From: Tannerella sp. | GTDB taxonomy: Bacteria > Bacteroidota > Bacteroidia > Bacteroidales > Tannerellaceae | Reading direction: 5' to 3' | Length of the DNA: 9,586 nt | NCBI GenBank assembly: GCA_031282485.1 | Contig: JAITDQ010000291.1 | Span: forward strand, 1 to 9,586 | Shown here: in pieces, positions 1 to 9,586 of the stretch | Position numbering within the stretch: position 1 is the stretch's first letter | Layout of the letters: each line of letters opens with the position of its first letter | Position numbers and translations under genes: made by a program | Notes under the pieces: model-generated | Told to the model about the DNA's origin: nothing | What the model saw: only the letters and a program-made list of their open reading frames with translations | The model's database searches: none

Positions 1-27
1 CCCGATGAAATGAAATTTCAACGCCTG

Positions 28-62
28 TTTGAGTGATTTCCGATAAACTTGTATTATCTTTG
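28..62 (+). promoter_or_regulatory. Putative Bacteroides-type promoter for the 92-715 membrane protein gene
   Basis: A -7 box TATCTTTG (55-62) matches the Bacteroidota consensus TAnnTTTG exactly. The nearest TTTG upstream (28-31) would be the -33 element, but its 23-nt spacer is longer than the usual ~19 nt, so only the -7 box is convincing. Transcription would start near position 70, about 20 nt before the ATG. AAAAGGA at 83-89 sits just ahead of the start codon and may help ribosome binding. Confidence 0.5.
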
Positions 63-91
63 CACGTACATTTTTAAAATCTAAAAGGATT

Positions 92-715
92 ATGGAAAAT
101 AAAATTCGTTATTCGGACATTTTCAGGACGGCATGGAAGGGGTTAAAAGCACAGTTTTGGCTTTTGGCGGGGTTATTGATTGGGTTTACAATTATATATT
201 CGCTTTTGTTGATATTCGCGATGCCGGCTGCGGGTGAGACTTTCACCATAAGCGGTATACTTGTATGTGTTTTATGCTTTTTCCTGTTTTGCCTTTTCCA
301 GCTGGGGTATCTCAAAAACTGCTTTCAGACGTTGGACGGCGAAGAACCTCAATTCTCGTCGTACGGACAGGTCTCGCGCAAACTGTTAAGCTTCCTTGCC
401 GCATATATCATTTACTCGATCATCATCTCCATCGGATTTGCATTGCTTGTCATCCCCGGTATATATCTTGCTCTAAGACTGCAATTCTTCTTCGCTTCCA
501 TGGTCGACGAGAACACGGGCGTTTTCGAATCTTTCAAACGGAGCTGGACGATAACCAAAGGTCATTCCTTCAGCCTGTTCGTTGTCACGTTGTTCATGAT
601 TCTGATATGCTTCATCGGCCAGATCGCTCTGTTTGTGGGGTTATTTGCCGCCATTCCGCTCGTCATATTAATGTATGGCGTTACATTTCGCAGACTGACA
701 AGCCCCGTAGCGTAA
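92..715 (+). CDS. Polytopic inner-membrane protein of unknown function (YciC/GPDPase-membrane-domain-like)
   Basis: This 207-residue protein is dominated by hydrophobic segments at about residues 22-43, 53-75, 98-128 and 160-198, which suggests five or six membrane helices. The short loop between them, about 119-160, contains a 'VIPGIYLALRLQF' stretch followed by 'DENTGVFESFKRSWTITKGH'. This resembles the LPGiyla...Al.RSw.ltkG signature seen in YciC/UPF0259 proteins and in the membrane domain fused to some glycerophosphodiester phosphodiesterases. No catalytic domain is attached. The role is unknown; proteins of this sort are annotated only as membrane proteins. The ATG at 92 is preceded by an A-rich AAGGA stretch and a -7 box, and an 84-nt gap with a separate promoter follows, so it is probably monocistronic. 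The gene call is firm, the family assignment moderate and the function not inferable. Confidence 0.85.
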   Translation: MENKIRYSDIFRTAWKGLKAQFWLLAGLLIGFTIIYSLLLIFAMPAAGETFTISGILVCVLCFFLFCLFQLGYLKNCFQTLDGEEPQFSSYGQVSRKLLSFLAAYIIYSIIISIGFALLVIPGIYLALRLQFFFASMVDENTGVFESFKRSWTITKGHSFSLFVVTLFMILICFIGQIALFVGLFAAIPLVILMYGVTFRRLTSPVA

Positions 716-732
716 TAAAATGTTCATATTTT

Positions 733-763
733 CTTGCCGTTTCAAAAACTATATGTATATTTG
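733..763 (+). promoter_or_regulatory. Putative promoter of the LacI-SDR-kinase operon
   Basis: The -7 box TATATTTG (756-763) matches TAnnTTTG exactly. CTTG at 733-736 matches three of four bases of the -33 TTTG element, and the 19-nt spacer is the Bacteroidota norm. The expected start point is near 770, leaving a leader of about 30 nt before the repressor ATG at 800. A LacI-like palindrome (772-787) falls just after the predicted start point. Confidence 0.7.
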
Positions 764-771
764 CCGCGCTC

Positions 772-787
772 TTGTGTTCGTACACAA
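772..787 (+). promoter_or_regulatory. Candidate LacI-family operator (autoregulatory)
   Basis: TTGTGTTCGTACACAA is an imperfect palindrome with 6-bp perfect arms (TTGTGT/ACACAA) around a central CG. An even-length palindrome centred on CG is the usual form of LacI-family operators. It lies just downstream of the predicted transcription start and 12 nt before the start codon of the LacI-family gene, where a bound repressor would block its own operon. I did not find a second full-quality copy in the window, so assignment to this repressor is inferred from position and symmetry only. Confidence 0.45.
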
Positions 788-799
788 AACTGAAAAGAG

Positions 800-1873
800 A
801 TGAAAAACTATCGGATAAAAGACATAGCAGCAATGTCCGGCGTATCGGCAGGAACTGTCGACCGGGTGTTGCATAATCGGGGACGCGTTTCGGAAGATGC
901 ATTAAGGAAAGTACAGGACGCTATCAAAGACATTGATTACCAGCCTAACTTGATAGCCCGCTCGCTGGCCTCAAAAAAGGATTGCCGTATCATAACGCTG
1001 ATACCGTCGTTCAAACCCGGCGAATACTGGGAGGAAGTAAGCAAAGGCATTGACAGGGTCGAGAGCGAACTTTCCGATTATCACCTCCGGATAGAACGCA
1101 AATTTTTCAACCAGTACGATAAAGACAGTTTCGACGCATCAGTCGAAGAATTAAAAAATGAAGAATACCAAGGCATTATCATTGCAACATTATTCTGCGG
1201 CAGTACTTTTTTGTTGACTCGACAGCTCGACAAAAAAGAGATTCCTTATGTGCTCATAGATTCGTATATCGACCATACGAACTGCATCGCCTATTACGGC
1301 ACGGATTCATATAAATCGGGATACATCGGCGGACGATTGCTGTACGAGAACATAAATCCGGATGACAACGTACTTTTGTTCAACATAATCAGCCGGAGCC
1401 GGGGCAGCGTGGAATCGACACAGGTGTCCATGCGCGAAAAGGGCTTCCGCGATTATCTGTCGCAATCCGGTTACAAGGGCAGGCTGTATCCCCTGAGCCT
1501 GTCTACCGAAAAACCGGACTATAACCAACGTGTCTTTGAAGCGCTTTTTGAACGGCTCGCGAACGAGGACAAACCGACTCGCGCAGGTATCATTTTCAAC
1601 TCGCGGGTACATGTTCCGGCAAAATATTTCCGGGAAAACGAGATAAAAAATTTCTGCCTCATCGGATATGATGCAATAAAGGCAAACACGGATTTCCTGA
1701 AGAGCGGAATCGTGTCCCACCTGATTGCCCAGCGACCGGAAGTGCAGGGATACAACAGCGTAAAAGCGCTTTTTTACCACTTGGCGTTAAATCAGGTTGC
1801 CGAAAAAGTGAATTATATGCCGATCGATATCCTGATAAAAGAAAACATTGACTATTATAATAATTATATATAA
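800..1873 (+). CDS. LacI-family transcriptional regulator
   Basis: This 357-residue protein has the standard LacI layout. An N-terminal helix-turn-helix ('IKDIAAMSGVSAGTVDRVLHN', residues 6-26) is followed by a hinge helix near 50-60 ('PNLIARSLASKK'), then a periplasmic-binding-protein-like sugar sensor of the Peripla_BP_4 type (about 62-345). The recognition helix reads TVDRVLHNRG where classic members have TVSRVLN; this Asp variant occurs in many sugar-responsive LacI regulators. It is the first gene of a run with the SDR (14-nt gap) and the PfkB kinase, so it most likely represses this operon and is released by a sugar acid or a KDG-type intermediate. The specific inducer cannot be read from sequence. 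The ATG at 800 follows an A-rich GAAAAGAG leader and gives a complete helix-turn-helix. The 3' end is A/T-rich (YYNNYI) but intact. Confidence 0.93.
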   Translation: MKNYRIKDIAAMSGVSAGTVDRVLHNRGRVSEDALRKVQDAIKDIDYQPNLIARSLASKKDCRIITLIPSFKPGEYWEEVSKGIDRVESELSDYHLRIERKFFNQYDKDSFDASVEELKNEEYQGIIIATLFCGSTFLLTRQLDKKEIPYVLIDSYIDHTNCIAYYGTDSYKSGYIGGRLLYENINPDDNVLLFNIISRSRGSVESTQVSMREKGFRDYLSQSGYKGRLYPLSLSTEKPDYNQRVFEALFERLANEDKPTRAGIIFNSRVHVPAKYFRENEIKNFCLIGYDAIKANTDFLKSGIVSHLIAQRPEVQGYNSVKALFYHLALNQVAEKVNYMPIDILIKENIDYYNNYI

Positions 1874-1887
1874 AATCATCATCAGAT

Positions 1888-2703
1888 ATGGAAAACTTAT
1901 TATTCAGCGTAAAAGACAAAGTGATTATCCTCACGGGAGGATCCGGTATTCTGGGCAGCAGCATGGCAAAGCACTTGGCAAACGAAAAGGCCAAAGTAGT
2001 AATCCTTGACCGCAATGCGGAAACCGGAAAGAATTTGGAAGAGGAAATAAAAAAGGACGGCGGCGTTGCCCTGTTTCTGGAGACGGATGTGTTGAACAAA
2101 GATGTGCTCGTGCAAAACAGGAAGGATATTCTGGATGCCTTCGGTACGATCGACGTGCTGATCAACCTCGCCGGCGGGAACATGGCCGGAGCGACCATCC
2201 CGCCGGAAAAAACATTCTTCGACCTCGACGTAGACGCATTCCGCAAAGTCGTTGATCTCAACCTCTTCGGAACCGTCCTGCCGACAATGGTTTTTGCCAA
2301 AGTAATGGCGGATAACAGGAAAGGATGTATCATCAACATTTCATCCGAATCGGCGTTGCGTCCCCTGACACGTGTCGTAGGTTACGGATGCGCAAAAGCG
2401 GCAATCAGCAACTTCACACAGTACATGGCGGGAGAACTGGCAACGAAATTCGGCGAAGGACTGCGTGTAAACGCCATTGCCCCGGGATTTTTCCTCACCG
2501 AACAAAACAGGGCGCTGATGAGTAATCCCGACGGCTCGCCTACCGAAAGATGCAAAAGCGTTACGGCGCACACACCGTTCCGCCGTCTCGGCCGCCCCGA
2601 CGAGTTGCTCGGCACCGTTCAATGGCTCGCAAGCGAAGCCTCCGCCTTCGTTACAGGCACAATCATCCCAATAGACGGCGGCTTCGATGCCTTCTCCATA
2701 TAA
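1888..2703 (+). CDS. SDR-family oxidoreductase, probable D-mannonate oxidoreductase (fructuronate reductase)
   Basis: This 271-residue classical short-chain dehydrogenase/reductase has a Rossmann dinucleotide loop TGGSGILG (residues 16-23) and Asp41 at the end of strand beta-2, which favours NAD(H) over NADP(H). It also has NLAGG (93-97), the tetrad Asn125, catalytic Ser153, and Tyr166-x3-Lys170. The C-terminal half resembles SDR-type fructuronate reductases such as Bacillus YjmF: 'IAPGFFLTEQNR' (197-208), the TAHTPFRRLGRPDELLGTV region, and an IDGGFDAFS tail. That reaction interconverts D-fructuronate and D-mannonate in cytoplasmic hexuronate breakdown. The enzyme is unrelated in fold to E. 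coli UxuB, so no symbol is given. It starts 14 nt after the LacI gene and precedes a KDG-kinase-like gene, which supports the hexuronate assignment. A gluconate or other polyol/aldonate dehydrogenase is the main alternative. Confidence 0.88.
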   Translation: MENLLFSVKDKVIILTGGSGILGSSMAKHLANEKAKVVILDRNAETGKNLEEEIKKDGGVALFLETDVLNKDVLVQNRKDILDAFGTIDVLINLAGGNMAGATIPPEKTFFDLDVDAFRKVVDLNLFGTVLPTMVFAKVMADNRKGCIINISSESALRPLTRVVGYGCAKAAISNFTQYMAGELATKFGEGLRVNAIAPGFFLTEQNRALMSNPDGSPTERCKSVTAHTPFRRLGRPDELLGTVQWLASEASAFVTGTIIPIDGGFDAFSI

Positions 2704-2720
2704 AATAAACCACCTATATC

Positions 2721-2741
2721 TTTTAATTTTTAATTTTTAAT
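2721..2741 (+). repeat. Three tandem copies of the 7-mer TTTTAAT in the kinase leader
   Basis: TTTTAAT occurs three times without interruption (2721-2727, 2728-2734, 2735-2741), about 10 nt upstream of the kinase ATG. A/T-rich leaders are usual for translation initiation in Bacteroidota, so this may simply be an unstructured ribosome-loading region. A perfect short tandem array can also gain or lose units by slippage. Confidence 0.8.
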
Positions 2742-2751
2742 TCACTCACGT

Positions 2752-3828
2752 ATGAAGCTAAAAGAAAACTACAAATGGTCGCTGGTAGTACCGACAAGCA
2801 TGGGTATACGCCTTACTCCCACAGCACAGGGACAGCCGATACATACGAGCAGCAACCTGTTCATGCAAGCCACAAGTGCAGAGACAAACGTGGCAAACAT
2901 CTCCGCCTATCTCGGACTTCCGGTGAAGGCGCTCACTACCTTCGTAAAAGGCAGCCCCATCGCACAATTCATTAAAGATAACCTGCGCAGCCGCCACATC
3001 GAATACGAAGGAAAGGATGTCGAACAGGGCGGCCCGTGGGGCTATCGTCATCAGATAAACATTGCCGACAGCGGATTCGGGTCACGCGGCCCGCGCGTAT
3101 GGAACGACCGCAGCGGCGAAGTAGGAAGAACGCTCAGTGTAAAAGACTTCGACCTCGACCGTATTTTCGGACAGGAAGGCGTCCAAATACTTCACCTGTC
3201 GGGACTTATCGGCGCTTTATCGCAGGAGACAAGCCGTTTCTGCCTCGAACTGGCGCGGGCGGCAAAAAAATATGACACGAAAATATCGTTCGACCTCAAT
3301 TATCGCGCGTCTTTCTGGAAAGGACGCGAGCAGGAACTGCACGACATCTTCACGGAAATAGCGTCCATAGCGGATATTCTGGTAGGTAACGAAGAGGATT
3401 TCCAGCTTTGTCTCGGCGTCGAAGGACCCGAAGCGGGAGGGAAAGATATTGCCGCCAAGATAGAAAGTTTCAAGGGTATGATACGGAACGTCAAGAAATC
3501 GTTCCCCGGCGCATCGGTTTTCGCTACGACACTGCGCGAAGTGGTAAACGCAAACAGCCATTTATGGGGCGCAATCATGCTCGAAGGCGAGAACTGGCAT
3601 GTCATCGAACCGCGACCCATCCATGTGCTCGACCGTATCGGCGGCGGCGACGGGTTCGTCGGCGGATTGCTTTACGGCATACTGAAAGGCTGGGAACCTG
3701 AAAAATGGCCGCAGTTCGGATGGGCTACCGGCGCGCTCGCCACTACGTTCCTGACGGACTACGGACAGCCGGCCGACGAAGACCAAGTGTGGAGCATCTG
3801 GGGCGGGAACGCGAGAGTTTTAAGATAA
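2752..3828 (+). CDS. PfkB-family carbohydrate kinase, probable 2-keto-3-deoxygluconate kinase-like
   Basis: This 358-residue ribokinase/PfkB-fold kinase carries the anion-hole and catalytic-base motif at 294-303 (DRIGGGDGFV, Asp300 as base). It also has 'DLNYRASFW' (181-189), a close match to the DLNyR..lW motif of KDG kinases, and 'VGNEEDF' (211-217). The expected reaction is ATP-dependent phosphorylation of 2-keto-3-deoxy-D-gluconate to KDPG in the cytoplasm. The N-terminus is less typical: it reads 'LVVPTSMGIRLTP' where the family usually has a GE..lRl.P motif, and the protein is somewhat longer than the common 310-345 residues. The substrate may therefore differ from KDG. It lies 48 nt after the SDR gene, behind an A/T-rich tandem-repeat leader, and a strong hairpin begins 6 nt after its stop, so it is the last gene of the LacI operon. 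Family is certain; substrate is moderate. Confidence 0.87.
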   Translation: MKLKENYKWSLVVPTSMGIRLTPTAQGQPIHTSSNLFMQATSAETNVANISAYLGLPVKALTTFVKGSPIAQFIKDNLRSRHIEYEGKDVEQGGPWGYRHQINIADSGFGSRGPRVWNDRSGEVGRTLSVKDFDLDRIFGQEGVQILHLSGLIGALSQETSRFCLELARAAKKYDTKISFDLNYRASFWKGREQELHDIFTEIASIADILVGNEEDFQLCLGVEGPEAGGKDIAAKIESFKGMIRNVKKSFPGASVFATTLREVVNANSHLWGAIMLEGENWHVIEPRPIHVLDRIGGGDGFVGGLLYGILKGWEPEKWPQFGWATGALATTFLTDYGQPADEDQVWSIWGGNARVLR

Positions 3829-3834
3829 TCGAAT

Positions 3835-3880
3835 AACGGGATATGCCCGCACGTACCGGAGCATATCCCGTTTGTTTATT
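3835..3880 (+). terminator. Strong hairpin terminator (or attenuator) between the kinase and LarA-like genes
   Basis: AACGGGATATGC (3835-3846) pairs perfectly with GCATATCCCGTT (3861-3872), giving 12 bp. Inside the loop, CCG (3847-3849) can pair with CGG (3857-3859) past one bulged A. A T-rich run (TTTGTTTATT, 3871-3880) follows. It begins 6 nt after the kinase stop and ends about 20 nt before the next ATG. No clear TAnnTTTG promoter fits between it and that ATG, so expression of the next gene may rely on read-through or an upstream internal promoter. Confidence 0.85.
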
Positions 3881-3900
3881 CACAAAAAATAAGAAATACT

Positions 3901-5166
3901 ATGTTGTATTACGGGCAGGGTGCGCCTGCAAAAGCTTTTAGCAGCGAAGAAATCAAAACGGCCTTATTTAAAACATTCGACAAACTGGGCGCAAAGAAGA
4001 AAGTGCTCGCCATACCCCCCGATTTCACACGTTTCCATTCGAGGGCAGGCGAACTTACACAATATGCTTACGAATATTACGGTGAACGCCTTACGGACAT
4101 ACTCCCCGCATTGGGAACGCATTTCCCGATGACGGAGGCGGAAACGGGAAAAATGTTTCCCGGCGTACCGAAATCCTTATTCCGCATCCACAACTGGCGC
4201 GAAGATGTAGTCGACGTAGGAACCGTGCCCGGGGAATATATCCGGGAAATATCCGAAGGGGCGATTGATTACCCCGTACCGGTGCAGGTCAATCGCCTGT
4301 TGCTCGAAGGCGGCTACGACCTTATACTGTCACTCGGACAGGTGGTGCCTCACGAAGTTATCGGCATGGCAAACTATAATAAGAATATTTTTGTCGGCGT
4401 CGGAGGGGCGGAATGTATCAATAAAAGTCATTTTATCGGAGCGGCTTACGGCATGGAACGCATTATGGGACGGGCGTCAGGGCCGGTGAGAAAAGTGCTG
4501 AACTATGCATCCGACAATTTCACGAACAACCTGCCGATTGTATACCTGCAGACCGTCATCTCGGAAGGCTCCGACGGATTGCAAATGCGCGGACTTTACA
4601 TCGGCGACGATTTCGAATGTTTCGATAAAGCGGCGACGTTATCGCTCGAAACGAACTTCCGCATGATGGACAGGGAAATAAAAAAAGCGGTTGTCTATCT
4701 CGACCCCGAAGAATTTCGCAGCACGTGGCTCGGCAATAAAAGCATTTACCGCACCCGCATGGCAATCGCCGACGGCGGCGAATTAATCGTACTGGCGCCG
4801 GGACTGCATCAGTTCGGCGAAGACCCGACGAACGACCTGCTCATCCGCAAATACGGTTACGTTCACACCCCGCAGGTGCTGAAATACGTCGAAGAAAACG
4901 AAGACCTGCAAAACAGCCTCGGCGTAGCCGCCCACCTGATTCACGGCACATCCGAAGGACGTTTCCGTATCACGTATTGCCCCGGACACCTTACACGCGA
5001 AGAAATCGAAAGCGTCGGGTTCAATTATGCCGGTCTGGACGGGATGATGAAGAAATATGACCCCCGGAAACTGAAAGACGGCTGGAACACGGTCGACGGC
5101 GAAGAAATATACTATATCTCCAATCCCGCATTAGGACTGTGGGCTTATCGCGAACGGTTCAAATAA
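3901..5166 (+). CDS. LarA-family nickel-dependent hydroxyacid racemase/epimerase (DUF2088), candidate aldonate C2-epimerase
   Basis: This 421-residue protein has the two-domain LarA length. The residues used by Lactobacillus plantarum LarA for its nickel-pincer nucleotide (NPN) cofactor and catalysis are recognisable. DFTR (Asp41, Arg44) corresponds to Asp72/Arg75, and GTHFPMT gives His74 for His108. His151, Lys161 and His177 keep exactly the spacing of His174, Lys184 (covalent cofactor lysine) and His200. The enzyme should therefore bind nickel through NPN and move a hydride at the alpha-carbon of a 2-hydroxyacid. The SGGRK cofactor motif is replaced by NYNK (158-161), marking a divergent subfamily. 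The neighbours (fructuronate reductase-like SDR, KDG kinase-like PfkB, gnd) favour a sugar-acid substrate such as D-gluconate/D-mannonate; gluconate 2-epimerases are known in this superfamily. LarB, LarC and LarE cofactor genes are absent here. pdxB follows after 8 nt. Family is firm; substrate is inferred. Confidence 0.9.
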   Translation: MLYYGQGAPAKAFSSEEIKTALFKTFDKLGAKKKVLAIPPDFTRFHSRAGELTQYAYEYYGERLTDILPALGTHFPMTEAETGKMFPGVPKSLFRIHNWREDVVDVGTVPGEYIREISEGAIDYPVPVQVNRLLLEGGYDLILSLGQVVPHEVIGMANYNKNIFVGVGGAECINKSHFIGAAYGMERIMGRASGPVRKVLNYASDNFTNNLPIVYLQTVISEGSDGLQMRGLYIGDDFECFDKAATLSLETNFRMMDREIKKAVVYLDPEEFRSTWLGNKSIYRTRMAIADGGELIVLAPGLHQFGEDPTNDLLIRKYGYVHTPQVLKYVEENEDLQNSLGVAAHLIHGTSEGRFRITYCPGHLTREEIESVGFNYAGLDGMMKKYDPRKLKDGWNTVDGEEIYYISNPALGLWAYRERFK

Positions 5167-5174
5167 AACGTCAA

Positions 5175-6314
5175 ATGAAACGACTGAAAATTATAGCTGA
5201 CGATAAAATACCTTTCCTTAAAGGAGTACTGGAGCCTTATGCAGACATCGTTTACCTGCCGGGAGCCAAAATAACGGCTGCGGATGTAAGCGATGCCGAT
5301 GCGATTTTCACACGTACAAGAACAAAATGCAACGAAACGTTACTGAAAGGCAGCAGCGTAAAACTTATCGCTACCGCTACGATCGGTTTTGACCATATTG
5401 ATACGGATTACTGCGATGCGGCCGGCATCCGCTGGGTAAACGCGCCGGGATGCAATTCGTGGTCGGTACAGCAATATATCACAGCCGTCATCGTGACGTT
5501 GGCGAAAGAAAAGTCATTCACGCCGGCCGACCTGACACTCGGCGTCATCGGCGTCGGAAACGTCGGCAGCAAGGTCGTGCGGGTTGCGGAAGCGCTCGGC
5601 ATGCGCGTACTGCAGAACGACCCTCCGCGTGCGGAACGCGAAGGCGAAGCGGCCTTTACCGCACTCGACAATCTACTGTCCGAAAGCGACATCGTCACCT
5701 GCCATACGCCGCTTACGAAAGAAGGCATCTACAGGACATATCACTTGGCAACGGATGATTTCTTTGCAAAAATGAAACCCGGATCCGTGTTTATCAACAC
5801 TTCACGTGGTCCCGTAACGGATACGGAGGCGCTGAAACGAGCCATACAGTCCGGCCGCCTGTCCGCTTATATCCTCGACGTTTGGGAAGGCGAACCGAAT
5901 CCCGACCGCGACCTGCTAAACGGCGCCTTCATCGGCACTCCGCACATCGCAGGGTATTCGTCCGACGGCAAAGCGAACGGAACGGCAGCCTGCATCCGCG
6001 AATTTTGCAACTTCTTTAACCTGAATATTCTGCCGGATTGGTATCCCGGGGATGTTCCCCCGCCTCCGATGCCGGTGTCGATCGTTATCGACGGCAGCGG
6101 CAAATCAAACGAACAGATATTTTTCGAAGCCGTCACTCACACTTATCCCGTTTGGGAGGACAGCAACCGGCTGAAGGCGTCGCCGGAAACATTCGAGGAA
6201 CAGCGCGGAGGTTATTGGATACGCCGTGAATTTAAAAATTTCACCGTTCATCCCGTAAATATCGGCGACGATACGGTAGAATCCCTTCGACGCATCGGTT
6301 TCAGGATTGTGTGA
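5175..6314 (+). CDS. pdxB: 4-phosphoerythronate dehydrogenase
   Basis: This 379-residue D-2-hydroxyacid dehydrogenase oxidises 4-phospho-D-erythronate to 2-oxo-3-hydroxy-4-phosphobutanoate in the DXP-dependent pyridoxal-phosphate pathway, in the cytoplasm. It has the NAD-binding GVGNVG (126-131) with Asp149 ending beta-2. The catalytic set is Arg211 (SRGPV), Glu240 (DVWEGEP) and His257 (PHIAGYS). A roughly 90-residue C-terminal dimerisation tail separates PdxB from phosphoglycerate dehydrogenases, and the match extends through its FEEQRGGYWIRREF segment. A proline-rich link (PPPPMP, 295-300) joins the two parts. The ATG at 5175 is chosen over an in-frame ATG at 5139: the earlier one overlaps the LarA-like gene by 28 nt and adds 12 residues (MGLSRTV...) ahead of the 'MKRLKIIADDKIPF' start that matches the family. 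It lies 8 nt after the LarA-like gene and is presumably cotranscribed with it. Confidence 0.93.
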   Translation: MKRLKIIADDKIPFLKGVLEPYADIVYLPGAKITAADVSDADAIFTRTRTKCNETLLKGSSVKLIATATIGFDHIDTDYCDAAGIRWVNAPGCNSWSVQQYITAVIVTLAKEKSFTPADLTLGVIGVGNVGSKVVRVAEALGMRVLQNDPPRAEREGEAAFTALDNLLSESDIVTCHTPLTKEGIYRTYHLATDDFFAKMKPGSVFINTSRGPVTDTEALKRAIQSGRLSAYILDVWEGEPNPDRDLLNGAFIGTPHIAGYSSDGKANGTAACIREFCNFFNLNILPDWYPGDVPPPPMPVSIVIDGSGKSNEQIFFEAVTHTYPVWEDSNRLKASPETFEEQRGGYWIRREFKNFTVHPVNIGDDTVESLRRIGFRIV

Positions 6315-6336
6315 TTAAATACCGCTCCCCAAAAAA

Positions 6337-6837
6337 ATGACGGACAAAAAACGCCTGCGAAACGCAAAACCGGAAGACGCCGCCGGTATTGCCGGCATAT
6401 ACAATTATTATGTCGAAAACACGGACATCACGTTCGAAACGGAACCCGTACCGGAAACGGAAATGCAAAACCGGATTCGCACCGTTTCAGAGCAATATCC
6501 TTACTTGGTGTACGAAGAAACAGGCCGGATACTTGGGTATTGCTACGCCTCAACATGGAAAAAGCGCGAAGCCTACCGCCATACGGTGGAATCGGCGGTC
6601 TACGTCGACCGGGCTTCGCAGGGACGCGGGATTGGCGCGTTGCTTCTGAACGCCCTGATCGAAGCGCTACGGCAGACGTCCGTACATGCGGTCATAGCGT
6701 GTATCACCATGCCCAATCCGCAAAGCGTGAAACTGCATGAAAAATTCGGGTTCCGGCAAGCATCCGGATTCAAAGAAGTCGGCCATAAATTCGGCAAATG
6801 GATTGATGTAGCCGACTGGCAGTTATTATTGCCATAA
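6337..6837 (+). CDS. GNAT-family N-acetyltransferase, phosphinothricin acetyltransferase (PAT/MnaT)-like
   Basis: This 166-residue protein fills a single GNAT domain. The acetyl-CoA pyrophosphate loop is QGRGIG (95-100). The preceding 'ESAVYVDRASQG' strand, the 'ITMPNPQSVKLHEKFGF' segment (123-139), and the 'VGHKFGKWIDVADWQLL' tail (148-164) are the hallmarks of the PAT/Bar/YncA (MnaT) branch. These enzymes acetylate the amino group of phosphinothricin, methionine sulfoximine/sulfone and some natural amino acids, using acetyl-CoA in the cytoplasm. In gut or environmental Bacteroidota the physiological substrate is usually unknown and may be an amino-acid-like metabolite. It starts 22 nt after pdxB with an A-rich leader (CCCCAAAAAA) and is followed 16 nt later by a MATE exporter, suggesting cotranscription. 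Subfamily is confident; substrate is not. Confidence 0.92.
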   Translation: MTDKKRLRNAKPEDAAGIAGIYNYYVENTDITFETEPVPETEMQNRIRTVSEQYPYLVYEETGRILGYCYASTWKKREAYRHTVESAVYVDRASQGRGIGALLLNALIEALRQTSVHAVIACITMPNPQSVKLHEKFGFRQASGFKEVGHKFGKWIDVADWQLLLP

Positions 6838-6853
6838 CCACGTAACAACAGGC

Positions 6854-8185
6854 ATGAACGGGACAGCGTCGACCATAAACAGGAACATATTAAGGCTTGC
6901 CATCCCCAATATGATTTCAAATATCGTCATTCCCCTGCTGGGAATGGTGGATGTTGCCATTGCCGGGTATATCGGTGAAGACGTTAACATTGCCGCGCTT
7001 TCTATCGGTACGACAATCTTCAATTTCATATACTGGAACTGCGCCTTCCTCCGCATGGGCACGAGCGGCATTACAGCTCAGGCTTACGGAGCCGGCGATT
7101 TCAGGGAATGTGCCAACATGCTCGTACGTTCCCTGTGGTTTGCTTTTCTGATGGCCTTACTCCTTGTCGTATTCCGTAAGCCGGCAGGCGACTTCTCGCT
7201 TTACGTCATGCAAGGAAGCGATACCGTACAACGGGTGGCCGGCGAATATTTTTTCGTGCGCATCTGGGCGGCTCCCGCATCCATTTCCCTCTTTGCCGTT
7301 CAGGGCTGGTTCATAGGCATGCAGGACGCCAAAACGCCGATGATTGTTGCGATTCTGTCGGTGATTATGAACGCGGCGTTCAGTCTTCTTTTCGTTTTCC
7401 GCTTTGATATGGGAATCGCCGGTATCGCCCTGGGTACGGTAGTTGCGCAATATATCGGCCTGATAACGTCGTGCATCCTCTGGTTCGTAAAATACCGCGA
7501 ATACATGAAATATTTCGACATCCGGGAATCCCTGCGCTTCGAACCCGTCGTGCGGTTCCTGCATGTGAACAAAGACATTTTCCTCCGTACGGCATGCGTC
7601 GTCGCCGTTTACACGTTTTTCACCGCCGCCTCGGCGCGTTTCGGCGACACGATTCTGACGACAAACGCCCTGCTCATGCAACTGTTTACCCTGTTCTCCT
7701 ACATGTCCGATGGTTTCGCGTATGCCGGCGAAGCGCTCTCCGGCCGTTTTGTCGGCGAACGCAATCCCGGCCTGTTGACGCGTTACATCCGCCGCCTGAT
7801 ATTCTGGTCATTGGTCATAGCCGTACTGTATGTCGGCGTTTACGCCCTGGCATGGCGGGAGATATTAACGATATTTTCACCCTCGGAAGAAGCCTTAAAC
7901 ATGGCGGGGCAATACATCGTCTGGATAATCGCCGTTCCGCTCGCAGGATGTATCCCGTTTATAATAGACGGCATAATGATCGGCGCAACAAAAACAAAAT
8001 TACTGCGAAACACCGTTTTCGTCTCCACCCTGCTGTTTTTCGGAATATTCTACGCCCTCTCCCCTGCCCTGGGCAATACGGCATTATGGCTCTCATTCCT
8101 CGTATTCCTGTTTTCCCGCGGCCTGTTACTGTACCTGTACTCCGGCAAACTTAACGCAAATAAAATAATCGGAGAAGGAACGTAA
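6854..8185 (+). CDS. MATE-family efflux transporter, DinF-like
   Basis: This 443-residue integral membrane protein has the length and hydrophobic pattern of a 12-helix MATE (multidrug and toxic compound extrusion) antiporter in the inner membrane. The first helix carries 'GMVDVAIAGYIG' (30-41) with Asp33, the conserved acidic residue used for H+/Na+ coupling in DinF-type MATEs. 'FLRMGTSGITAQAYG' (65-79) is the typical second-helix signature of that branch. A second MATE repeat follows from about residue 230, with 'YMSDGFAYAGEALSGRFVG' matching the repeat-2 equivalent. Substrates of this group are poorly defined cationic or amphipathic compounds. The start is the ATG 16 nt after the GNAT gene. 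The pairing with an acetyltransferase might reflect modification plus export of one compound, but short spacing alone could equally be an unrelated operon. A 163-nt gap with a possible promoter follows, so the transcript probably ends here. Confidence 0.93.
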   Translation: MNGTASTINRNILRLAIPNMISNIVIPLLGMVDVAIAGYIGEDVNIAALSIGTTIFNFIYWNCAFLRMGTSGITAQAYGAGDFRECANMLVRSLWFAFLMALLLVVFRKPAGDFSLYVMQGSDTVQRVAGEYFFVRIWAAPASISLFAVQGWFIGMQDAKTPMIVAILSVIMNAAFSLLFVFRFDMGIAGIALGTVVAQYIGLITSCILWFVKYREYMKYFDIRESLRFEPVVRFLHVNKDIFLRTACVVAVYTFFTAASARFGDTILTTNALLMQLFTLFSYMSDGFAYAGEALSGRFVGERNPGLLTRYIRRLIFWSLVIAVLYVGVYALAWREILTIFSPSEEALNMAGQYIVWIIAVPLAGCIPFIIDGIMIGATKTKLLRNTVFVSTLLFFGIFYALSPALGNTALWLSFLVFLFSRGLLLYLYSGKLNANKIIGEGT

Positions 8186-8262
8186 AACCTCCGAAGGAAA
8201 AAGTATTTCGATGTGTGCGACAACATTCATCAAAAAAACGATTCCGTTTCGGGAAAAATGCG

Positions 8263-8270
8263 TACCTTTA
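8263..8270 (+). promoter_or_regulatory. Possible -7 box of the gnd promoter
   Basis: TACCTTTA matches seven of the eight bases of TAnnTTTG. No TTTG is present at the expected ~19-nt distance upstream (8240-8243 reads GATT), so the call rests on the -7 box and on position in the only sizeable intergenic gap before gnd. If used, the leader is about 70 nt and includes the hairpin at 8285-8308. Confidence 0.35.
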
Positions 8271-8284
8271 CGCCCTGAAATAAC

Positions 8285-8308
8285 ACATAACAGACAAAAA
8301 AGTTATGT
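8285..8308 (+). other. Inverted repeat in the gnd 5' leader
   Basis: ACATAAC (8285-8291) and GTTATGT (8302-8308) form a perfect 7-bp A/T-rich stem with a 10-nt A-rich loop. It is not followed by a T-run, so it is not a standard terminator. It could be a protein-binding palindrome or a weak leader hairpin. No known riboswitch class is recognised in 8186-8348, and nothing else in that stretch stands out. Confidence 0.4.
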
Positions 8309-8348
8309 CACTTTAAAGAAACTTATTACTAACAATATTTATTTACGT

Positions 8349-9586
8349 ATGAAAAATTTAGCAGACATTGGCTTGATTGGTTTAGCCGTTATGGGCGAAA
8401 ACCTTGTATTGAACATGGAAAGCAAAGGCTTTACGGTAGCCGTATTCAACCGTACGGTAGAGAAAGTCGACAAGTTCGTGAACGGACGCGGAAAGGGTAA
8501 AAATTTTATCGGCGCACATTCTATCGAAGAACTGTGCAACTCGCTTCAGCGTCCGCGTAAAGTAATGATGCTCGTGAAAGCGGGACGTGCGGTTGATGAT
8601 TTCATCGAACAGATCATACCTCACCTTGAGCCGGGAGACGTAATTATCGACGGGGGAAATACACACTTCCCCGATACGATCCGCCGCACGGCATACGTCG
8701 AAAGCAAAGGCTTGCTGTACATCGGCACCGGCGTGTCCGGCGGGGAAGAAGGCGCCCTGAACGGCCCGTCGATGATGCCGGGAGGCTCACCGGCGGCATG
8801 GGAACTCGTAAAACCCGTTTTCCAGTCTATCTGTGCAAAAGCGGACGGACAACCCTGCTGCGAATGGGTGGGCGAAAACGGCGCCGGCCATTTCGTGAAA
8901 ATGGTTCACAACGGCATCGAATACGGCGACATGCAGCTTATTTGCGAGACTTACCAGATAATGAAAGACCTCCTCGGCATGTCCGCCCCGGAAATGCACG
9001 AAGTCTTCAAAGCGTGGAACAGCGGCGAACTGGACAGTTACCTCATCGAAATAACCCGCGACATTCTGGCATACAAGAACGAAGAAGGCGAAACCGTCGT
9101 CGACAAAATACTCGACACCGCCGGACAAAAGGGAACCGGCAAATGGACAGCCGTTTCCGCCCTCGATCAGGGCGTGCCCCTGACGCTTATCGCCGAGGCT
9201 GTGTTCTCCCGCTGCCTGTCCGCACAAAAAGACGAGCGCGTCATCGCCTCCAAACAGCTTTCAGGCCCCGCCCCGTCATTCACAGGCGACAGGAACGCCT
9301 TCATCGAAGATTTGAAAAACGCCCTTTATGCATCCAAAATCGTATCCTACGCCCAGGGATACATGCTCATGCGCGAGGCGGCGAAAGAATACAAGTGGAA
9401 CCTCAACTACGGCGGAATAGCGCTGATGTGGCGCGGTGGCTGCATCATCCGTTCGGTATTCCTGGGAAAAATCAAAGAAGCGTTCGACCGCAATCCCGGA
9501 CTTACGAACCTGTTGTTAGACCCGTTCTTCAAAGAAAAAGTGATGAGTGCGCAGGCCAGCTGGCGCCGTGTCGTAGCATCGGCCGT
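8349..9586 (+). CDS. gnd: 6-phosphogluconate dehydrogenase, decarboxylating (3' end beyond window)
   Basis: The frame runs open from ATG 8349 to the window edge: 412 full codons of a family normally 468-490 residues, so roughly 60-80 residues are missing by truncation of the window, not by mutation. The N-terminal Rossmann domain has GLIGLAVMG (8-16) and NRT (34-36), the NADP-type fingerprint. IIDGGNTHFPD (99-109) and GVSGGEEGALNGPS (128-141) follow. Catalytic Lys184, Asn188 and Glu191 (KMVHNGIEYGD) correspond to Lys183, Asn187 and Glu190 of the sheep enzyme. The all-helical substrate and dimer domain continues to the edge. It converts 6-phospho-D-gluconate to ribulose 5-phosphate and CO2, yielding NADPH, in the oxidative pentose phosphate pathway. 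A 163-nt gap and possible promoter separate it from the MATE gene, so it is probably a separate transcription unit. Identity is certain. Confidence 0.97.
   Translation, partial: MKNLADIGLIGLAVMGENLVLNMESKGFTVAVFNRTVEKVDKFVNGRGKGKNFIGAHSIEELCNSLQRPRKVMMLVKAGRAVDDFIEQIIPHLEPGDVIIDGGNTHFPDTIRRTAYVESKGLLYIGTGVSGGEEGALNGPSMMPGGSPAAWELVKPVFQSICAKADGQPCCEWVGENGAGHFVKMVHNGIEYGDMQLICETYQIMKDLLGMSAPEMHEVFKAWNSGELDSYLIEITRDILAYKNEEGETVVDKILDTAGQKGTGKWTAVSALDQGVPLTLIAEAVFSRCLSAQKDERVIASKQLSGPAPSFTGDRNAFIEDLKNALYASKIVSYAQGYMLMREAAKEYKWNLNYGGIALMWRGGCIIRSVFLGKIKEAFDRNPGLTNLLLDPFFKEKVMSAQASWRRVVASA

Follow-up and report, generated by a model that had tools for sequence, protein, structure and literature searches.

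A LarA-superfamily group 18 protein of Tannerella sp. as a predicted D-mannonate/D-gluconate 2-epimerase beside a predicted PfkB-family gluconokinase

Gluconate 2-epimerases are known from the LarA superfamily, whose namesake uses a nickel-pincer nucleotide (NPN). GntE1 of Corynebacterium glutamicum (LarAH group 19) and LarAH15 of Phytophthora nicotianae have been assayed as such enzymes, according to the accessible text of two papers (PMC7583248, PMC11770544). GntE2 of Thermotoga maritima (LarAH group 20, PDB 4NAR) stands in a gene set that, in the available part of the description, comprises gnd, uxaE, uxaD, gntE and gntK (PMC3750489). As far as the accessible text goes, group 18 was hypothesised in 2020 by Desguin and colleagues to be a hexonate epimerase (PMC7583248), and a 2024 survey, in which a further GntE member was assayed, does not name group 18 in its main text (PMC11770544). 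Here we analysed a group 18 protein, with the working name LarA18, that is encoded on contig JAITDQ010000291.1 of Tannerella sp. (assembly GCA_031282485.1), positions 1-9,586; "the window" means this whole stretch of 9,586 nucleotides. In our reading, the protein interconverts D-mannonate and D-gluconate at C2, as the middle step between hexuronates and the pentose phosphate route, the adjacent PfkB-family kinase phosphorylates gluconate, and the cofactor is most likely NPN or a close analogue; we give this a probability of roughly 0.7. An epimerase of this kind had been proposed from the letters of the window, and it is still the best-supported reading (family, cluster and the gluconokinase GntK, see below). 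However, the idea was not new, for the hexonate epimerase hypothesis was already in print (PMC7583248), and the NCBIfam name of the family agrees with it. What is new is the substrate evidence (mannonate to gluconate, with PfkB as gluconokinase) and a cofactor gap in 32 of 68 genomes. This would give one group of the nickel-pincer superfamily a concrete, testable substrate and pathway.

The gene and its functional codons, with conservation in 112 aligned group 18 rows, are as follows.

3901..5166, plus strand: LarA-superfamily group 18 protein, predicted D-mannonate/D-gluconate 2-epimerase (NF052594)
4021..4032, plus strand: codons Asp41 to Arg44 (LarA D72, R75); Asp41 and Arg44 invariant
4120..4122, plus strand: codon His74 (LarA H108); invariant
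4351..4359, plus strand: codons His151-Glu152-Val153 (LarA H174, F175, F176); invariant
4372..4383, plus strand: codons Asn158-Tyr159-Asn160-Lys161 (SGGRK region; Lys161 corresponds to K184); 160 and 161 invariant, 158 and 159 variable
4429..4431, plus strand: codon His177 (LarA H200, nickel ligand); invariant
4738..4740, plus strand: codon Lys280 (counterpart of LarA K298); invariant, aligned with the lysine of GntE2

The open reading frame scored 660.3 bits (cut-off 500) against the NCBIfam model NF052594, "nickel-dependent putative hexonate epimerase" (NPN_18_hexonate), and the protein has the Lar_N domain and the LarA fold by which membership in the superfamily was judged. The alignment held 112 rows: 80 from loci, 29 from family genomes, two from a Lar_N search and the window (the window copies L001 and L105 were dropped, and several rows are one gene taken twice). 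Throughout these rows the NPN-binding residues of LarA (R75, K184, H200) were found as R44, K161 and H177; the catalytic residues (D72, H108, H174, K298) correspond to D41, H74, H151 and K280. The sequence-only reading had called the protein a LarA-type enzyme, and all residues that it named were present, with Lys280 in addition. According to the accessible text of the survey, GntE enzymes carry the signature E, V, A, H at LarA F175, F176, W358 and T359 (PMC11770544). E152 and V153 of the window protein fit the first two positions; A344-H345, also invariant, is a candidate for the pair at LarA W358/T359. The comparison with GntE1 and LarAH15 was confined to this signature as given in the accessible text, which begins E, V, as in the window protein. 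With GntE2, the window protein shares 26% identity over 390 aligned residues, and the loop is Glu-Val instead of the Glu-Ser of GntE2. Two other assignments were tried and rejected. The NCBIfam models for malate racemase gave 32.5 and 23.1 bits, far under their cut-offs of 500 and 462, so that the protein does not score as a malate racemase; placement inside such a clade would have spoken against the first reading. A UxaE-type tagaturonate epimerase was suggested by the label "putative uronate isomerase" on 4NAR, but this entry is GntE2 according to the paper, not UxaE; UxaE (PF16257) is a gene separate from LarA18 in the clusters. The group also has lower-scoring members above the cut-off of NF052594, G002:C178 (584 bits) and G065:C130 (L162; 562 bits), of which the latter, at 43% identity with the window protein, has retained the residues for cofactor binding and catalysis.

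The proposed pathway draws on neighbouring genes of the window; the genes of the cluster listed here are all on the plus strand.

800..1873, plus strand: LacI-family regulator, first gene of the cluster, 14 bp ahead of the next gene (PF00356, PF13407)
1888..2703, plus strand: short-chain dehydrogenase/reductase (SDR), predicted D-fructuronate reductase (D-mannonate oxidoreductase); NF006132, 379.4 bits, cut-off 281
2752..3828, plus strand: PfkB-family sugar kinase, predicted gluconokinase, from a clade apart from the KdgA-adjacent PfkB and from the substitution by GntK
5175..6314, plus strand: PdxB-like 4-phosphoerythronate dehydrogenase, co-located; NF001309, 425 bits, slightly below the cut-off of 434
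8349..9586, plus strand: gnd, 6-phosphogluconate dehydrogenase; TIGR00873, 662.5 bits, cut-off 426.7; the gene passes the end of the window and its start codon is inferred

In this scheme, UxaC (together with UxaE when galacturonate is the substrate) would deliver D-fructuronate, which the SDR would reduce to D-mannonate. LarA18 would then invert C2 to give D-gluconate, by homology through a proton-coupled hydride transfer as in LarA; this step is drawn from family, signature and context. The adjacent PfkB would convert gluconate into 6-phosphogluconate, and Gnd would yield ribulose 5-phosphate, CO2 and NADPH. We mapped 17 protein types, LarA18 included, in 81 loci (the best 80 matches listed plus the window, with many close Tannerella relatives among them), "near" meaning within 5 kb of LarA18. 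SDR was near LarA18 in 58 loci, gnd in 52, PfkBb (the more frequent of two PfkB subtypes, PfkBb and PfkBc) in 46 and PdxB in 28, followed by KdgA (16), UxaC (15), UxaE (14), KdgK (11), KduI (10) and UxuA (8). Among the 47 loci that have more than 4 kb of sequence on both sides of LarA18, 36 contained SDR, 36 gnd and 26 PfkBb. SDR, gnd and one of four kinases stood together within 5 kb on the strand of LarA18 in 35 of the 81 loci (25 of the 47), and those 35 include, by record title, Bacteroidota, Ignavibacteriota and Planctomycetota. The matched parts are tightly packed, with median gaps of 74 nt between SDR and PfkBb, 47.5 nt between PfkBb and LarA18, and 42 nt between LarA18 and gnd. For gene content we used 68 group 18 genomes, hand-picked for completeness and spread as 73 entries (23 of 40 matching family genomes and 50 of the 80 loci), among which five genomes were present twice; the genomes behind the loci come without completeness figures. 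UxaC was found in 66 of them (64 above the cut-off) versus 7 of 14 control genomes, and in the host it is a fragment, below the cut-off, in a 272-residue frame.

The kinase carries much of the argument. Four types occur near LarA18, never more than one per locus: PfkBb in 46 loci, a protein like pyrophosphate (PPi)-dependent phosphofructokinase in seven, PfkBc in six and GntK in three, while 19 have none; the chance of such mutual exclusivity was 1.2e-7, with kinship ignored. GntK (TIGR01313) was matched in only 3 of the 68 genomes, all Acidobacteriaceae, and each time it lies between UxaE and SDR beside LarA18. PfkB is missing from the cluster in these three loci, the cluster being the part of the genomes that was searched for it. 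For example, one locus (L081) has the order UxaC-LarA18-UxaE-GntK-SDR-HAD, with GntK at L081:6442-7116, which is close to the T. maritima set in the available part of its description (PMC3750489). The substrate of GntK is gluconate and the SDR is predicted to release mannonate, so LarA18 would join both, and PfkBb would replace GntK. No other finding argues as strongly for these roles of group 18 and PfkBb. In the same acidobacterial cluster, a HAD phosphatase like fructose-1-phosphate/6-phosphogluconate phosphatase, below the model cut-off, follows the SDR (L081:8111-8755, L061:12893-13504, L055:12903-13610).

The sequence-only reading had called the window kinase like that for 2-keto-3-deoxygluconate (KDG). 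Our results revealed that the relationship stands, for the nearest PDB relatives include the KDG kinases 2afb and 1v19, but that clade and motif are separate. Nine PfkB proteins that directly adjoin KdgA have the motif type RASKVVYDR with GGGDSF, whereas most LarA18-adjacent ones have RGPRVxNDRxGEVGR with GGGDGF; RxPVVFYNR marks PfkBc, which is a smaller set. On the PfkB tree (62 of 64 rows, two fragments being dropped; quick search with SH-aLRT support only), one label change separates the KdgA-adjacent proteins from those adjacent to LarA18 or gnd. There, the longest branch has five LarA18-adjacent proteins (PfkBc) on its KdgA side, apart from the single clade that 42 others form. The window PfkB was judged by the clade and the sugar-site motif of the KdgA-adjacent proteins, and it did not conform to them, which also sets it apart from the KDG kinase TM0067 (2afb); the motif stretch has low confidence in the structure model. 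Together with the GntK loci, this makes it a KDG-kinase-related protein that is better read as a gluconokinase. No PfkB gluconokinase report was found in the open-licence PMC literature, as far as its accessible text goes. The kinase beside the window gene also differs from that of GntE2 in T. maritima. In general terms, the prediction is that KDG-kinase-like PfkB proteins act as gluconokinases in many bacteria. The PPi-phosphofructokinase-like protein (PF00365, f19) was near LarA18 without PfkBb or PfkBc in all seven of its loci (L042, L050, L054, L067, L069, L037, L040). PPi-dependent phosphofructokinases have a role on sedoheptulose phosphate. As a candidate gluconokinase, this protein could equally serve sedoheptulose phosphate. 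Five of the seven loci have a weakly HAD-like protein of about 300 residues directly upstream of LarA18.

Several observations weigh against the proposed pathway, and two other readings of the substrate draw on them. One is that LarA18 epimerises another sugar acid (aldarate, altronate or a phosphorylated aldonate) and that the link to gluconate is a coincidence of neighbourhood. GntE1 has a KM of 120 mM for mannonate despite its uronate context, and its authors suggest a uronic or aldaric acid, according to the accessible text (PMC7583248), so context can mislead; for group 18, neither an assay nor other activity data were found in the open-licence PMC literature, taken at the extent of its accessible text. 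However, the cluster includes gnd (52 of 81 loci) and, in three loci, a GntK-type gluconokinase, whose substrates are 6-phosphogluconate and gluconate, respectively. Furthermore, D-gluconate and the D-mannonate that the SDR is predicted to produce are epimers at C2. We hold this explanation to be rather unlikely. The other is the ordinary KDG route, with PfkB as KDG kinase and LarA18 in a side role. It agrees with the PDB relatives of the kinase and with the KdgA and UxuA genes near LarA18 in 16 and 8 of the 81 loci. UxuA was above the cut-off in 36 of the 68 genomes, the host among them, which gives mannonate another exit there; mannonate dehydration coexists with LarA18 in many, not all, genomes. 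In nine loci KdgK occurs together with one of the four kinases. In L029 and L039 it is the sole sugar kinase found near LarA18, which speaks against a dedicated gluconokinase in those two. They belong to the 19 of 81 loci with none of the four kinases within 5 kb, 11 of which have more than 4 kb on both sides. The GntK argument itself has limits: the three genomes form one acidobacterial clade and so represent one evolutionary event, TIGR01313 had no match even in the control T. maritima, and FGGY-type gluconokinases were not searched, so that the 68 genomes could hold another gluconokinase. Against the KDG route stand the two motif types and their separation on the tree, the position of KdgA, which is not in the window, and the replacement of PfkB by GntK in the three Acidobacteriaceae clusters. 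We consider this route unlikely.

A mannonate/gluconate epimerase of the LarA type would need its hydride-accepting cofactor, and NPN is predicted as that cofactor from the residues alone. LarB, LarC and LarE (together LarBCE) were searched with NF033503, PF01969 and TIGR00268, respectively. LarB matches at E 1e-9 to 1e-14, mostly in frames of 160-240 residues, were taken as PurE-like cross-hits and, like LarE matches weaker than 1e-12, were not counted; counted LarE matches are of at least 1e-36 quality and counted LarB matches of 1e-50 or better. All three genes were found in 30 of the 68 genomes, some in six (G015, G070, G094, G142, G163, G170) and none in 32, the 80%-complete host assembly included. 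In contrast, T. maritima, run as control, matched all three models. The window protein is a member of NF052594 by score, but the nickel dependence in the family name is not explained by gene content in these 32 genomes. We therefore assign it to the LarA superfamily and do not count it among the proven NPN enzymes. In the sequence-only reading, a genome lacking larB, larC and larE was to count against the proposed activity, and this lack was found in the host and 31 other genomes. The active site and the operon are conserved, so in our view the reaction itself is not refuted by this lack; the cofactor is presumed to be NPN. No report of LarA homologues in LarBCE-less genomes was found in the open-licence PMC literature, in so far as its text is accessible, while the opposite gap, LarB, LarE and LarC without LarA, was described for about 15% of genomes, according to the accessible text (PMC11796402).

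The gap may have a trivial cause, an artefact of assembly or search. The host assembly is 80% complete (2.56 Mb, 384 contigs), and in several relatives (G002, G007, G012) the genes larB, larC and larE are near neighbours, so a single gap could remove all three. However, the same absence was seen in 9 of the 12 assemblies that are 90% complete or better and no more than 5% contaminated, as well as in five of the 11 named-strain loci (Draconibacterium sediminis, D. mangrovi, Maribellus sp. YY47, M. sediminis and Perlabentimonas gracilis). Furthermore, L020 (Barb4), which is not marked as a metagenome-assembled genome (MAG) and is outside the named-strain count, also lacked them. The same searches recovered all three genes in 30 genomes, and at least one NPN gene is present wherever a second Lar_N protein occurs (eight genomes, E up to 1e-28; hypergeometric p 0.004); an artefact thus appears quite improbable. 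Alternatively, group 18 may have abandoned NPN in LarBCE-less genomes and work by a different chemistry or with another hydride acceptor. As drawn, the LarA18 tree of 63 rows has nine changes of LarBCE status, only 5 to 6 of them being forced by starred branches; the labels are clustered, for none of 500 shuffles gave a number as low. Among 118 family genomes, LarA18 was in 37 (two fragmented copies counted, one contig-end stub excluded), LarC in 20 and both in 10; the association is weak (10 of 37 versus 10 of 81, p 0.06), so the presence of the enzyme hardly predicts that of the pathway. These points favour a loss of NPN, but neither the nickel ligand His177 nor any other NPN-binding residue varies, whether or not LarBCE is present. 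Moreover, 25 genomes have all three NPN genes but lack a second Lar_N match of E 1e-28 or stronger (one, G143, has a weak match of 6.7e-4), which makes LarA18 the likeliest NPN client there. LarA18 in LarBCE-less genomes keeps every cofactor residue and does not look decayed: dN/dS was 0.027 to 0.126 in five measurable LarBCE-less pairs (dS 0.15 to 1.87, rough); three LarBCE-bearing pairs gave 0.032 to 0.087 and one mixed pair 0.082, and three LarBCE-less pairs and one other were saturated. We consider a loss of NPN rather unlikely. The lysine and the nickel ligand are retained throughout the 112 rows, and for this reason we favour NPN or a close analogue as the hydride acceptor in these bacteria, probably taken up from outside or obtained by an unrecognised route.

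In the 32 genomes, roughly half of the set, NPN may come from salvage or from a route not yet recognised, or a different cofactor may serve. The exposed gap is that of an intact nickel-pincer-type active site for which the known pincer genes were not found; if real, it means that cofactor sharing or a second biosynthetic route exists. A wider proposal, for which we see an even balance, is that the LarA-type epimerase of many Bacteroidota and Ignavibacteria works with a cofactor that these bacteria do not make by LarB, LarE and LarC (NPN from neighbours, or NPN or an analogue via an undiscovered route), with the PfkB-family operon partner as a second, unrelated kind of gluconokinase.

The cofactor searches also brought up divergent genes. 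Eight of the 30 complete-set genomes have a divergent LarC that is only partly matched (E 1e-20 to 1e-32). Short, divergent LarC-like proteins, in frames of about 270-360 residues with a partial PF01969 match, were seen at G172:C3:78869-81161 and at places in G139, G140, G145, G149, G158, G162 and G176, mostly Marinilabiliaceae. These genomes also have a divergent LarB (173-186 bits), and some have a divergent LarE (121-148 bits), which in G162 and G172 occurs besides the normal LarE; this set is possibly a variant NPN pathway. Three Planctomycetota (G142, G163, G170) have LarB and LarE with no PF01969 match, and their LarC may be split, divergent or missing. Two neighbours were considered and rejected. 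PdxB, tried as a cofactor-related gene, was near LarA18 in 12 versus 2 loci, favouring the LarBCE-less ones, but it tracks taxonomy, and the LarBCE-less Ignavibacteria loci have no PdxB near LarA18. A MocA-like protein (f18) was found in seven loci, six of them LarBCE-less, chiefly Prolixibacteraceae.

Among the matches listed in the scan for LarA18 loci, the closest relatives of the window are Tannerella-like and Tannerellaceae MAGs, which we take to come from termite or cockroach guts. No Rfam family was found in the window. Promoter-like sites numbered 15 versus 9.7 (standard deviation 3.6) in shuffles, and terminator-like sites 12 versus 13.7, and they were not used further. Between LarA18 and gnd, the PdxB-like gene (window 5175-6314) could tie the use of erythrose 4-phosphate for pyridoxal phosphate to the operon. 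It is followed by a GNAT acetyltransferase (window 6337-6837) with 201.1 bits, just under the cut-off of 210 for ArsN1b arsinothricin resistance. A DinF-like MATE transporter (window 6854-8185) lies between PdxB and gnd, and it is near LarA18 in six other loci.
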